Shown here: in pieces, positions 27,177 through 34,342 of the stretch
Position numbering within the stretch: the stretch's first letter is position 1
Layout: each line of letters starts with the position of its first letter
Position numbers and translations under genes: made by a program
Source of the DNA: Rhodanobacter sp. FDAARGOS 1247
GTDB taxonomy: Bacteria; Pseudomonadota; Gammaproteobacteria; Xanthomonadales; Rhodanobacteraceae
DNA: 64,000 nt
Direction: 5' to 3'
NCBI RefSeq assembly: GCF_016889805.1
Contig: NZ_CP069535.1
Location: 1,984,001-2,048,000, forward strand
The notes under the pieces: model-generated
What the model saw: only the letters and a program-made list of their open reading frames with translations
What the model was told of the DNA's origin: nothing
Databases searched by the model: none

Positions 27177-27223
27177 GGGCGCCCCGCGTGCGGCACGACA
27201 CGCCAGTCTTCGGATGCCCAGCC

Positions 27224-30145
<2,922 letters not shown>

Positions 30146-30168
30146 CCATCGGTCGATCGTCCGATGCG

Positions 30169-30196
30169 AAGGCCCCGCCACGGCGGGGCCTTTTTT
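30169..30196 (+). terminator. Terminator after gcvP
   Basis: An 11-bp perfect stem (30169-30179 with 30182-30192) with a run of six T from 30191 to 30196. It ends between the convergent gcvP and the multidomain hydrolase gene. Confidence 0.92.
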
Positions 30197-30213
30197 ATGG
30201 TGGAAAACCCCGG

Positions 30214-33069
30214 CTAGAACCCGCGCAGGTCGTCCACCGGCAGCGCCAGCTTCGCGCCGGTGATGCGTTCCAGGGTGCGACCCAGCACCTCGACGTTGTT
30301 GTCGAAGCTGCCATGCCCCGCGTCGATGGCGACCTCCGGGTGCAGGCAGGTGGGCACCTTGTCCACATCGATGACTTCGGTGCGCTTGCCCAGGCCGGTC
30401 TGCTTCGCCACTTGGCGCCAGTTGCCCAGCGCCTCGGCCGTGCTGGACGAACCGTCCCAGCCCTTGTACCCGGCGTCCATCACGTTCGCCAGGCCGAGGA
30501 TCGGCGTGCGCACATCCAGCTCCAGGGCGTTGGACACCAGGTACAGCAGCGACTTGCGATAGATCGCCGCGGTGTTGTCGTCACGCTCGTTGCGGTCGGA
30601 CAGGATGCCCAGGTAAAGCCGCTGCATCAGGGCATCGTGTGGCGCGTAGTGGCGGTTGGCGAACTGCACGGTGCAGGCCGGCGCGTACAGGTGGATGGAT
30701 GCGGTCTGCGCCTCCAGCCCGCGCGCGGCCAGCAGGTCGACCAGGTAGCCATGGAAGATCGAACCGGCGGAGTGGCCGACCAGGTGGATCTCCAGCTGGT
30801 CGCCCCAGGTCTTGGCCAGGTTCTGCAGCGCCGTCACCAGCAGGTCGCCGCCCCGCGTGGGCAGGCTGGCGGCTTCGGCGTTTTCCTTCATCTCGCTCCA
30901 GATCGGCCGCGCCAGCGGACGGCCGACGGTGCGCTCGACGAGGATGTCGGTGGCGTCGCTGATCTTCTCGCGAATGCCGCCGGCCCGCGGCGGCTCGCGC
31001 CGGAACTTGTCGGCGAAGATGTCGCCGATCGATTCGAGCATGCCGGTCTTCCAGATCACGAACAGCGGATAGCAGCCGTTGCCGATGAAGTAGCGCCCCA
31101 TCGCCCGCGCGCGTTCGATCGCCGCGGCCTCGCTGTTGAGTCCGCCGTGGGCATAGATCACCAGCCGCTTGGTCGTCGCCTTCTGCTGGCGGAACCACTG
31201 GTCCGGCAGCGTGCAGGCCTGGAACAGCAGCGAGCGACTCATCTCGTCCTGGGTGAGGTAGCGCGTCACCCGGCCGTCGTTGCCCAGCACCACGCTGTGC
31301 TCGTAGGCGGTGGCCTCGTCCCACCACAGGCTGCGGTTGGTGCCGACACGGCTGCTGCCACCCTTGCTGCCCGCCGCGAGCTGGCCCAGCACCACGCCCG
31401 ACACGCCCATCGCGGCCACCCATGCGTCCATGCCGTTGGCCAGCCAGTCGGCGTAGGTCAGCACGGCGAAACCGCCGCAGCCCCAGCTCTTGCCCCAGGA
31501 GTTCTGCACCACGAAGCCGTCGGTGTTGAAACCGACCAGGGCGAAGGCGTGGCCGTCGTCGTGCGAGGGTTTGCCGTCGAACGCGATCACCGGCAGGCTG
31601 TCGTGCCCGGCCAGCTTCCGGCGCACGGTCGGCACGTCCTGCCAGCCCTGGTGCGTGTTGGCCGACACGTAGATCGCGCCCACTTCGTGGATCGCCGCCT
31701 GCAGGTCGCTGATCGTCTTCAGCTCGATCCGGTAATACACGCCCAGCGTGTTGGCGGTGGCGCGGGTGGCGTAACCGAACTTCGGCGGCTGCGTGTCCTC
31801 CTGCCGATACGGCCAGTCGACCTCCATGCAGACGCCGTGGTGATACCAGCCCTTCAGCGCGCCACGGCAGCTCGAACCGTCGTAGTTCTCGCCCGCGTAT
31901 TCGTCGTAGCGGCGGGCGAAGTTGTAGAACATGCGCGGGCTGACCGAAGCCAGTCGACCCGGCATCCCGCTCTTGCGCCAGCGCAGGTAGTTGACCACGC
32001 AGGCCAGGCCGAAACCGGTGCACGCGCCTTCCTGCCCTTGGTCGAGGATCAGGCCGGCCCCGGTATAGGCCGGCAGGAACTCGTTGATCTGCGCATCGGT
32101 GGGGTAACGATCCGGCAGGCTGGCCGGCGGCGGCTGGTAGGCGCGATCGCGCAGGTCGACCGGGTCCTTGCTGGCGTCGAGTTTCGCCGCGCCCGTCGCC
32201 GCCGCTGCGACGGCCTTGCGAGCCGCGCCGGCCTTGCGAGTCGCACCCACGCCGCGAACGGCCACCGGCCAGACCGACGCGGCCAGCTGGAACACGTTGC
32301 GGAAGCTTGCCAGTCCGTAGCTGCCGCCGTTGACCAGCTTGCGTGCCGCCGCGTAGTTGTTCGCCGCCAGCGCCGTGCGCATCCTGTCCGCCGCGTGCGC
32401 CAGGAACAGCGCCAGCAGCACGGCCGCCACCTCGGGCGCGTTGGCCAGGTCCGGAAAGGCTTCGATGTCGACGCCGATCAGGGCCGCGTAGGTGTGGTAG
32501 TTCGCCCGCCCCGTCAGCTGCACGAAGCCGCGGCCCCGATAGCGCGCGCCGTCGCCGGGCTGGTCGTTGCCCAGCGACTTGCGTCCGTCGTAGGCACTGA
32601 ACGCGGGCAGCCCCGGCGTGGTGTTGAAGTGCGAGGGAAACTCGGCGATCGGCACGAAGCCTTCGCTCTCGGCGCGGATAGTGCCCAGCGCGGCGCAGAT
32701 CATCATGCGGTCGCGCAGCCCTGCCGCGCCCAGCGCTGCCGCCACGTAAGGCAGGTAGCGCACGATGTTGGACTTCTTGGTGGCCGGGAACAGCCGCTGC
32801 ACCGCGTCCACCGTCAGCGGTACCGCCATCGGTTGTGGTTGCATCATGCCGAGCAGGCCCTGGCAGCACGGCCCGATCACCGCATCGGCGACCATCCCGA
32901 TGCCGGCCTGCCATCGCCGCGCCGCCGCGTCGACCTGCTCGTCGAAAATGTCGCCCGTCGCCAATCCCGGAAAGTCGCGCGCGTCGTCGCCGAGTACCCC
33001 GGCCAGGCGCTTGCGCAGCGTGGCGACATCGTTCCCGGAATTCCCCTTGACCAGCAGCAGTGTTGCCAT
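30214..33069 (-). CDS. Four-module hydrolase: PG-binding, GH19-like, papain-like peptidase, alpha/beta hydrolase
   Basis: A 951-residue protein with no signal peptide, started at the ATG at 33069 behind GGGGAG. Modules in order: a peptidoglycan-binding-like domain (about 8-75); a GH19/COG3179 chitinase-endolysin-like domain (about 100-260) with IRAESEG (Glu134) and RYRGRGFVQLTGRANY; an Ala/Lys/Arg linker (270-300); a C1 papain-like domain (about 335-560) with oxyanion Gln344, Cys350 in QGQEGACTGF, His507 in GHAFALVGF and Asn523 in NSWGKSWG; and an alpha/beta hydrolase-like domain (about 630-925) with YAHGG, nucleophile Ser767 in GHSAGS, and His919 as a possible base. All key residues look intact. 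The combination suggests an enzyme against cell walls, proteins and lipids or esters. Neighbours give no secretion system or immunity gene, so its target is unknown. Confidence 0.85.
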   Translation of the reverse strand: MATLLLVKGNSGNDVATLRKRLAGVLGDDARDFPGLATGDIFDEQVDAAARRWQAGIGMVADAVIGPCCQGLLGMMQPQPMAVPLTVDAVQRLFPATKKSNIVRYLPYVAAALGAAGLRDRMMICAALGTIRAESEGFVPIAEFPSHFNTTPGLPAFSAYDGRKSLGNDQPGDGARYRGRGFVQLTGRANYHTYAALIGVDIEAFPDLANAPEVAAVLLALFLAHAADRMRTALAANNYAAARKLVNGGSYGLASFRNVFQLAASVWPVAVRGVGATRKAGAARKAVAAAATGAAKLDASKDPVDLRDRAYQPPPASLPDRYPTDAQINEFLPAYTGAGLILDQGQEGACTGFGLACVVNYLRWRKSGMPGRLASVSPRMFYNFARRYDEYAGENYDGSSCRGALKGWYHHGVCMEVDWPYRQEDTQPPKFGYATRATANTLGVYYRIELKTISDLQAAIHEVGAIYVSANTHQGWQDVPTVRRKLAGHDSLPVIAFDGKPSHDDGHAFALVGFNTDGFVVQNSWGKSWGCGGFAVLTYADWLANGMDAWVAAMGVSGVVLGQLAAGSKGGSSRVGTNRSLWWDEATAYEHSVVLGNDGRVTRYLTQDEMSRSLLFQACTLPDQWFRQQKATTKRLVIYAHGGLNSEAAAIERARAMGRYFIGNGCYPLFVIWKTGMLESIGDIFADKFRREPPRAGGIREKISDATDILVERTVGRPLARPIWSEMKENAEAASLPTRGGDLLVTALQNLAKTWGDQLEIHLVGHSAGSIFHGYLVDLLAARGLEAQTASIHLYAPACTVQFANRHYAPHDALMQRLYLGILSDRNERDDNTAAIYRKSLLYLVSNALELDVRTPILGLANVMDAGYKGWDGSSSTAEALGNWRQVAKQTGLGKRTEVIDVDKVPTCLHPEVAIDAGHGSFDNNVEVLGRTLERITGAKLALPVDDLRGF

Positions 33070-33247
33070 GACGTATCTCCCCTCGTCCGTGGTGAAGGCT
33101 ACGAAACACGGCGGCAGCATACGCTCGGTTCGGGGGCGGCACATGGCCCGCGGCGCCGGGAAAAACCGGCCACGGCAACGCGCACGAAGCGTGCCAGCGA
33201 ACGCGATCTGCCGGCGTCGATCGCCGGTCCGACAGGCCTGGCGCCGG

Positions 33248-34186
33248 TCAGCTTGCCGCCACGATGCAGTCCCGGCCCTGCTGCTTGGCCCGGTACAGCC
33301 GCTTGTCGACGCTGTCGAGGAAGCCGCGCAGCTCGTCGGCGTGCGCGGGAATGCAGGTGGCCGCGCCGACGCTGATGGTCAGCACCGGGCCGACCGCGGA
33401 CTGCGCATGGGGAATCTGCTCGGCCAGGATCAGGTCGCGGCAGCGCGCGGCCAGCTTGTGCGACGCCGCCTCGTCGGTTTCCGGCAGCAGCAGCACGAAT
33501 TCCTCGCCGCCGAAACGCGCCAGCAGGTCGCGTGCGCGGGTCGCGGCGGAAGCCAGCAGCCAGGCGACGCGCTTCAGGCAGGCGTCGCCTTCGAGGTGGC
33601 CGTAGCAGTCGTTGTACTGCTTGAAGTAGTCGATATCGATCATCAGCAACGACAGCGGCTGGCGGTTGCGCCACGCGTTGCTCCATTCCAGTTCCATCAG
33701 CGCATCGAAGCGGCGCCGGTTGGCCACGCCGGTGAGGCCGTCGCGGAAGGACAGTTCCTCCAGTTCCTTCTGCAGGCTCGCCAGTTTCTGTTCGGTCTGC
33801 TTGCGTTCGCTGATGTCGAACATGAAGCCGATCAGCGAATCGACCGAACCGTCCGCCCGGCGCACCACGTGCACCACGTCGCGAATCCACACGTAGTGGC
33901 CGTCGCGGGTCAGCGCCCGGTAGTCGGCTTCATGATCGACACCGGCCTGCGATTGCGCCACGCAGAAATTCAGCACCCACTCGCGATCCTGCGGATGCAT
34001 GCGGCTGGCCCAGTCGCCCACCGTCTGCCAGCTCGCCGGCGTCCAGCCCAGCAGCGCCTCGATCTGCGGTCCGATATAGGCGAACTGCTTGCTGTCCCAG
34101 TCGATCTTCCAGGGAATGGCCTTGGTGGACTCCAGCAGTGTGCGGTAGACGGTGCTGTCGGGTTCCAGCTTTTCGAAATCGGCCAT
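33248..34186 (-). CDS. PAS-GGDEF diguanylate cyclase
   Basis: A 312-residue protein with a PAS sensor (about residues 10-140, PAS_3-like, with FAYIGPQIEALLGWTP and the PAC end FMFDISERKQTEQ), a short coiled-coil signalling helix, and a GGDEF domain (about 155-312). The active site is GGEEF, intact, and RARD five residues before it is a complete inhibitory I-site, so product inhibition is expected. There is no signal peptide or membrane helix, so it is a cytoplasmic sensor. The ATG at 34186 is used; a start at 34267 would add a low-complexity leader. Confidence 0.93.
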   Translation of the reverse strand: MADFEKLEPDSTVYRTLLESTKAIPWKIDWDSKQFAYIGPQIEALLGWTPASWQTVGDWASRMHPQDREWVLNFCVAQSQAGVDHEADYRALTRDGHYVWIRDVVHVVRRADGSVDSLIGFMFDISERKQTEQKLASLQKELEELSFRDGLTGVANRRRFDALMELEWSNAWRNRQPLSLLMIDIDYFKQYNDCYGHLEGDACLKRVAWLLASAATRARDLLARFGGEEFVLLLPETDEAASHKLAARCRDLILAEQIPHAQSAVGPVLTISVGAATCIPAHADELRGFLDSVDKRLYRAKQQGRDCIVAAS

Positions 34187-34342
34187 CGCTCTCGGACTCA
34201 AGCATGAAGACGGGTCGCCGCAGCTGCGCGGCGATCGCGCCAGCCGGCGCGCAGACGCAAGGTACATCGTCCGCCGGGCGTATCGCCAATCGCACCAGGC
34301 GGCGCCCGCTGGTGCAAGCGGGCGCCGTCACGGGCAAGCGGA

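Follow-up and report, generated by a model that had tools for sequence, protein, structure and literature searches.

A widespread four-module enzyme in Rhodanobacter and related bacteria as a candidate cell-demolition protein built around a shared alpha/beta-hydrolase

We analysed a stretch of 64,000 nucleotides from Rhodanobacter sp. FDAARGOS 1247 (hereafter the window), which carries on its minus strand one intact frame of 951 residues (30214-33069). It encodes a protein with peptidoglycan-binding (PGB), GH19/endolysin, papain and alpha/beta-hydrolase modules, and a Shine-Dalgarno-like GAGGGGAG (33077-33084, minus strand) lies 7 nucleotides 5' of its ATG at 33069. The plus strand is also open opposite the gene (29689-33375), and this frame was taken for a probable high-GC shadow because the conserved protein and the low dN/dS belong to the minus frame, in which every module of the protein is under purifying selection. 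The gene is flanked on one side by the convergent gene gcvP, encoding glycine dehydrogenase (27188-30145, plus strand), and on the other by a PAS-GGDEF-type diguanylate cyclase gene (33248-34267, minus strand). A GC-rich hairpin that is terminator-like on the plus strand (30168-30193) separates the gene from gcvP, although it is a weak candidate, as 2 such sites occur in the region versus 1.9 expected by chance. The source genome (3.9 Mb) holds a single full copy of the four-module gene, and among named relatives Rhodanobacter spathiphylli B39 is nearest, with about 98% identity in the four-module protein, gcvP and the cyclase alike. A second GH19-like stretch lies outside the window in the same genome (C1:3727278-3727478, minus strand), within a 337-codon frame and with 42% identity to residues 156-222 of the window protein.

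Module 1 (residues 1-78, 32836-33069, minus strand as for all modules) is probably of the peptidoglycan-binding type PF01471, as judged by structure prediction (pLDDT mostly 88-97) and by the domains of relatives; PF01471 is precomputed for many of these, P0010 and P0011 among them, and gave no hit at E<=1 in the window protein itself. Module 2 (residues 84-268, 32266-32820) is GH19/endolysin-like in sequence and fold, with conserved Glu134, Glu143 and Thr186. PF00182 stays below threshold here (16.7 versus a cut-off of 25.5 bits) and is precomputed for some close relatives; the module nevertheless has both the GH19/endolysin fold and the conserved glutamates, presumably the catalytic pair of GH19-type endolysins. 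After a low-confidence linker (residues 273-291, 32197-32253, pLDDT <50) follows module 3 (residues 295-556, 31402-32187), a papain-like, xylellain-like module with PF00112 above cut-off (31.8 versus 20.7 bits) and fold matches to papain, in which Gln344 (oxyanion), Cys350, His507 and Asn523 are kept in 61 of 61 aligned rows. By these features module 3 is a member of peptidase family C1 (papain) and a predicted protease. Module 4 (residues about 575-951, 30217-31347) has the fold of the alpha/beta-hydrolase superfamily, a G-x-S-x-G nucleophile elbow (GHSAG 765-769, with Ser767), a late histidine (His919), an HGG motif at 641-643 and a helical insertion at about residues 677-758; its best Foldseek match was middling (1.4e-3), with none below 1e-3 in the fold lists. 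DUF900 (PF05990) was absent from the window protein in a Pfam scan and is weak elsewhere, being sub-threshold in the scanned relatives and precomputed for P0134 and P0226. The caspase C14 domain PF00656 gave no hit at E<=1 in the window protein, and the NCBIfam library gave no match to it. The initial annotation had placed four modules in one open frame with Cys350, His507, Asn523 and Ser767 intact, and both statements hold; the key catalytic residues are invariant across the 61 rows.

The four-module combination is widespread, yet named only generically where it is named at all. A search returned 2,477 hits to any part of the protein at E<=1e-3, and 119 of the best 120 listed cover at least 95% of it, with 62-98% identity. 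Named carriers among these 120 are Gamma- and Betaproteobacteria, including Rhodanobacter, Dyella, Pseudomonas, Variovorax and Klebsiella; many of the entries are nameless and others are labelled C1 family peptidase, peptidase C1, predicted chitinase or hypothetical protein. All four modules are spanned in 39 of 47 genome-contig loci, contig ends truncate 3 more, and 5 match from residue 284 or later only (1 of these also contig-cut). The initial annotation knew each family but not this combination, and the rarity so implied was contradicted by these end-to-end hits and four-module loci. Nearer to the source genome the distribution is patchy: a match at E<=1e-50 was obtained in 12 of 120 relatives, a set that includes the source genome itself, and 5 of these 12 hold the full form, while the papain-hydrolase core, whole or partial, was matched in 16 of 398 genomes of the phylum. 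The E. coli genomes gave no DNA match to the gene.

Within Rhodanobacter, the four-module gene is placed between gcvP and the diguanylate cyclase gene. The genus offered 28 further loci for comparison: in 10 of them gcvP and a cyclase of at least 64% identity stand about 60-540 bp apart with the four-module gene absent, and in the remaining 18 the cyclase hit was weak or outside the 1.5 kb compared. Because the gcvP-cyclase site thus occurs without it, the four-module gene is accessory and, in the genus, occupies one site. Inspection by eye of the window ORFs around it revealed no integrase, and composition gave no island signal. At the locus of Rhodanobacter Soil772 (L015 9604-9858) the gene adjoins gcvP and the upstream cyclase is recognisable only as a C-terminal part, as if cut by insertion or later deletion.

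We then considered the neighbours of the four-module form, picking 149 ORFs from 27 loci and scanning the nearest 103 with Pfam and PADLOC. No Pfam family occurred in more than 3 of the 103 ORFs, and therefore no dedicated partner gene recurs, on a scan that would miss an immunity protein differing locus by locus. PADLOC 2.0.0 matched 0 families at E<=1 in the window protein and revealed no consistent defence context among the 103 neighbours, where it matched SspA, DndA and mad2 twice each and TRIP13, NucC, DrmC, IetA, PD_DExK, mad3 and mad8 in single proteins. We take the SspA and DndA matches to be probable housekeeping homologues. The one TRIP13 and the one NucC match had strong E-values, and both are presumably CBASS-type proteins. 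Large recurring neighbour clusters look, from their coordinates, mostly like shadow ORFs antisense to the gene or like synteny among near relatives, and GAF/cyclase proteins near a few loci were dropped as partners, the similarity being at domain level only. No caspase was found at E<=1e-8 in the six full-form genomes (G000, G022, G033, G055, G062 and G180).

The papain and hydrolase modules also occur alone, as a core of about 620-750 residues with the catalytic residues kept, and a search with one core-only member from Sinorhizobium returned 6,034 hits of any part. Other N-terminal modules found on the core are a GH19 of another lineage (3 proteins), an N-acetylmuramidase, PF11860 (2 proteins), and, in proteins whose hydrolase is only putative, a trypsin (2 proteins, by Pfam). 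The same hydrolase is joined with Amidase_2 and a caspase in two proteins that match Magnetococcales records P0243 and P0244 exactly or closely. Searching with one of these amidase-hydrolase-caspase proteins gave 1,827 hits, counting those to any part; both PF01510 and PF00656 are present in 118 of the best 120 listed, with Massilia, Azospirillum, Azotobacter, Hymenobacter, Nitrospira and others as named hosts. An alignment of amidase-caspase proteins to the window protein shows the motifs HGG, HSAG, KSL and HGxF kept in 9 of 9, and by sequence the two kinds of protein share one hydrolase subfamily.

A tree of the hydrolase domains grouped the PGB-GH19 form (support 92/94) and the amidase-caspase form (100/98), and set the second GH19 form and the muramidase form apart from these, beside one core-only protein each. 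It contains 38 domains from 40 sequences; L087 was too short for placement, and L085 and L143, both of the trypsin type, were dropped with no detectable hydrolase domain, such that the hydrolase is at most putative in trypsin-papain proteins. Because the wall-hydrolase forms occupy separate branches, wall hydrolases probably joined the core at least three times, on an unrooted tree in which losses could mimic repeated gains. The predicted C-terminal hydrolase is on this comparison the shared hub of muramidase plus papain, another GH19 plus papain, and amidase plus caspase builds. A stand-alone PGB-GH19 protein, with 42% identity to residues 35-271 of the window protein, is encoded in Caballeronia sp. 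M1242 (L054 7926-8738), where its gene adjoins one for an N-acetylmuramoyl-L-alanine amidase.

Gene neighbourhoods were compared for 36 loci without the window's exact architecture, comprising 7 with a fused wall hydrolase, 3 of the trypsin type and 26 with a stand-alone papain-hydrolase; the counts are minimum counts, only part of the neighbours having been scanned. A caspase gene is adjacent in at least 5 of the 36, 3.7 kb off in 1 and fused in 2, both among the 7 with a fused wall hydrolase; beyond those 7, a wall hydrolase is nearby in at least 5. At least 8 of the 26 stand-alone loci have a caspase or wall-hydrolase gene close by. The caspase lies directly downstream of the core gene in S. 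mexicanum, S. terangae and Rhizobium CC1099 (the last with a CHAP wall hydrolase nearby), near the core together with a CHAP wall hydrolase in S. meliloti, and at a distance of 3.7 kb in R. leguminosarum, where trypsin and YLATT genes accompany it. In genome G349 the neighbour at 22 bp encodes a GDSL lipase, a caspase and an M15 peptidase in one frame, and this protein, whose M15 part is counted among the nearby wall hydrolases, is the sole caspase found in that genome. R. etli has an amidase-PGB wall hydrolase near the core, S. fredii (L083) a PGB neighbour with a CHAP hit below cut-off, and G215 a GDSL-trypsin gene (GDSL by homology) and an animal-type peroxidase gene followed by the core; the loci of other relatives, e.g. 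Ideonella and Eleftheria, showed nothing special. Rhizobia account for 5 of the 6 caspase-near cases, including 3 near relatives, and so this is a pattern rather than a statistic. The caspase-linked loci are remote from the four-module clade. Of 26 carrier genomes, 12 lack a caspase.

Two further features were observed at these loci. The trypsin-papain genes of Roseivivax and two Paracoccus each have as neighbour a divergent gene some 2,350 codons long, and the three such genes are related (L085 1-4674, L087 1-4648 and L143 1-4894, all minus strand); in the two scanned, the first approximately 1,600 residues had no Pfam match over the cut-off. Animal-type haem peroxidases (PF03098) lie beside or near the papain-hydrolase gene at L086 4187-5899, L105 6020-7918 and L145 9668-11353, and L082 has an annotated peroxidase plus a P450 near it.

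The main rival to the reading that we favour below is that of an antibacterial effector, exported by a type VI secretion system (T6SS) or another Sec-independent route and acting on a neighbour's wall, membrane and proteins. In a crude 19-residue hydropathy scan 0 of 61 rows reached 1.6 within the first 45 residues (the whole-protein maximum is 1.63 for the window protein, and 6 of 61 rows reach 1.8), and the lack of a Sec-type N terminus so indicated is compatible with such a route. The source genome has the T6SS sheath gene VipB (C1:2695672), T6SS entry 8xcl appears at rank 50 of the fold matches, and multi-enzyme T6SS wall effectors exist (TseP; available text of PMC11893102). However, the T6SS marker VipB/TssC was present in 4 of 12 carriers versus 36 of 108 non-carriers among the 120 relatives, in 6 of 26 genomes with a core or hydrolase-only match, and was missing from 3 of the 6 full-form genomes (G022, G055 and G062), in contrast to WHIX effectors, for which T6SS is found in >98% of genomes (available text of PMC12135965). 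The WHxxxH motif occurred in 0 of 61 aligned rows, and no neighbour recurred as a candidate immunity gene in the 103 ORFs of 27 loci. The contact-dependent or exported effector first proposed is not supported, since a Sec-type N terminus, a recurrent neighbour of the immunity kind and a T6SS link are all lacking, and we consider it less likely than self-lysis.

We regard as less probable again a lytic or digestive enzyme that is released by lysis of a few producers, in a bacteriocin- or predation-like manner, and acts outside on other bacteria. The PG-binding N terminus, the solitary position of an accessory gene among housekeeping genes and the presence of the full form in only 5 of 120 relatives would all suit it, but a look by eye through the window neighbours revealed no release gene, and the association of relatives with caspase and trypsin would be left unexplained. 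An ordinary envelope housekeeping or recycling enzyme, as strong purifying selection and the lack of a known toxic phenotype might suggest, is improbable given the patchy presence, the gcvP-cyclase adjacency without the gene in relatives, the several predicted degradative activities in one chain and the joining of the same hydrolase with caspases. The endolysin-like GH19 module is what would recommend a phage lysis gene or prophage remnant, which we judge very improbable: a search for close relatives found none in viral contigs, 0 of 154 matching phage records cover 80% of the query, the 30 listed phage matches all fall within residues 68-267, and no phage gene was recognised by eye around the gene. 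Plasmids are similar, with 38 matching records and none over 80% of the query.

The reading to which we give nearly an even chance is that of a cytosolic, normally latent cell-demolition enzyme, most likely serving self-lysis or suicide defence of the abortive-infection type. Relatives that combine similar activities, some with a caspase, suggest a built-in cell-dismantling device: a wall hydrolase, a thiol protease and a lipase-like hydrolase come together in several unrelated builds, and the simplest reason would be that all have one target, the bacterial cell. The four-module protein would be kept latent in the cytosol until triggered, upon which the lipase-like C-terminal domain would attack the inner membrane, the PG-binding/GH19 half could then reach and cut peptidoglycan, and the papain domain might degrade proteins or cut flexible linkers, freeing the modules. 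The producer's own cell would be the most likely target because of the caspase and trypsin ties of some relatives and the lack of an export signal, an immunity-like neighbour or a T6SS link. We count in favour of self-directed demolition the invariant catalytic residues, the purifying selection in all modules and the parallels published as a death device (PMC3501461) and as conflict systems (PMC7159879), both as far as their available texts go. Against it count the solitary window gene with no regulator, recurrent partner or consistent defence context beside it, the absence of caspases from the full-form genomes, the distant and mostly rhizobial caspase links of relatives, a wall-binding domain that is odd on a protein waiting in the cytosol, and the middling best fold match of a hydrolase whose activity is a prediction. 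The initial annotation had offered an exported effector or a lysis enzyme, and the latter is the better half of that guess, the exported half being unsupported.

More tentatively, we propose a so far unrecognised superfamily of cell-demolition enzymes around one alpha/beta-hydrolase hub that may have been joined several times to a wall hydrolase and a thiol protease. Its partners would be GH19 twice, muramidase and amidase on the wall side and papain or caspase on the protease side, with GDSL-caspase(-M15) as a parallel build, and its members may be compact executioners of bacterial programmed lysis with papain in the place of the caspase. If so, a large set of bacterial genes that now go nameless or under 'C1 family peptidase' and 'caspase family protein' would form one multi-enzyme lysis class, the role of bacterial caspase-type proteins at death would become directly testable in a one-gene system that has no regulators, and the enzymes would be natural multi-activity lysins.

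The open-access literature, as far as its matches were listed, yielded no paper that deals with either the papain-hydrolase or the four-module protein, and the words chitinase, lipase and xylellain occur 0 times in the available text of a papain classification (PMC10318531). The closest precedent is the amidase(-GDSL lipase)-metacaspase proteins of 2012: Asplund-Samuelsson et al. described four amidase-metacaspase sequences, one with a GDSL lipase, and proposed a death role (PMC3501461, available text). These likewise unite a wall hydrolase and a thiol protease in one chain, once with a GDSL lipase, whereas the window protein has papain for caspase, PGB-GH19 for amidase and another module order. 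The amidase-caspase proteins aligned here carry its alpha/beta-hydrolase in 9 of 9 cases, and the available text of PMC3501461 mentions neither this hydrolase nor a papain version. Kaur et al. 2020 (PMC7159879, available text) described the pairing of alpha/beta-hydrolase and caspase in conflict systems and predicted an attack on peptidoglycan by papain-like and lysozyme domains; their caspase/trypsin/alpha-beta-hydrolase systems also pair a protease with an alpha/beta-hydrolase, likened here by fold class, but are multi-gene, in contrast to the solitary window gene. T6SS chimeric effectors resemble the window protein in having several toxic enzyme domains per protein (TseP, PMC11893102; WHIX, PMC12135965; available texts), and differ in that the latter has no T6SS co-occurrence, immunity-like neighbour or WHxxxH. 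For single modules, xylellain of Xylella fastidiosa (PDB 3ois) is a papain-like protease in a 291-residue chain without wall or lipase modules, and the GH19-type phage endolysins (9ms7, 8p8e and SPN1S 4ok7) are like module 2 in sequence and fold but, unlike the window protein, are short lysis proteins with no protease or hydrolase; mycobacteriophage endolysins offer a modular parallel (PMC3314691, available text). Each module family is thus already known and the lipase-amidase-protease idea dates from 2012, from one of the four amidase-metacaspase sequences; new here, relative to the listed open-access literature, are the version with papain, how widely it occurs and the hydrolase hub common to the builds.
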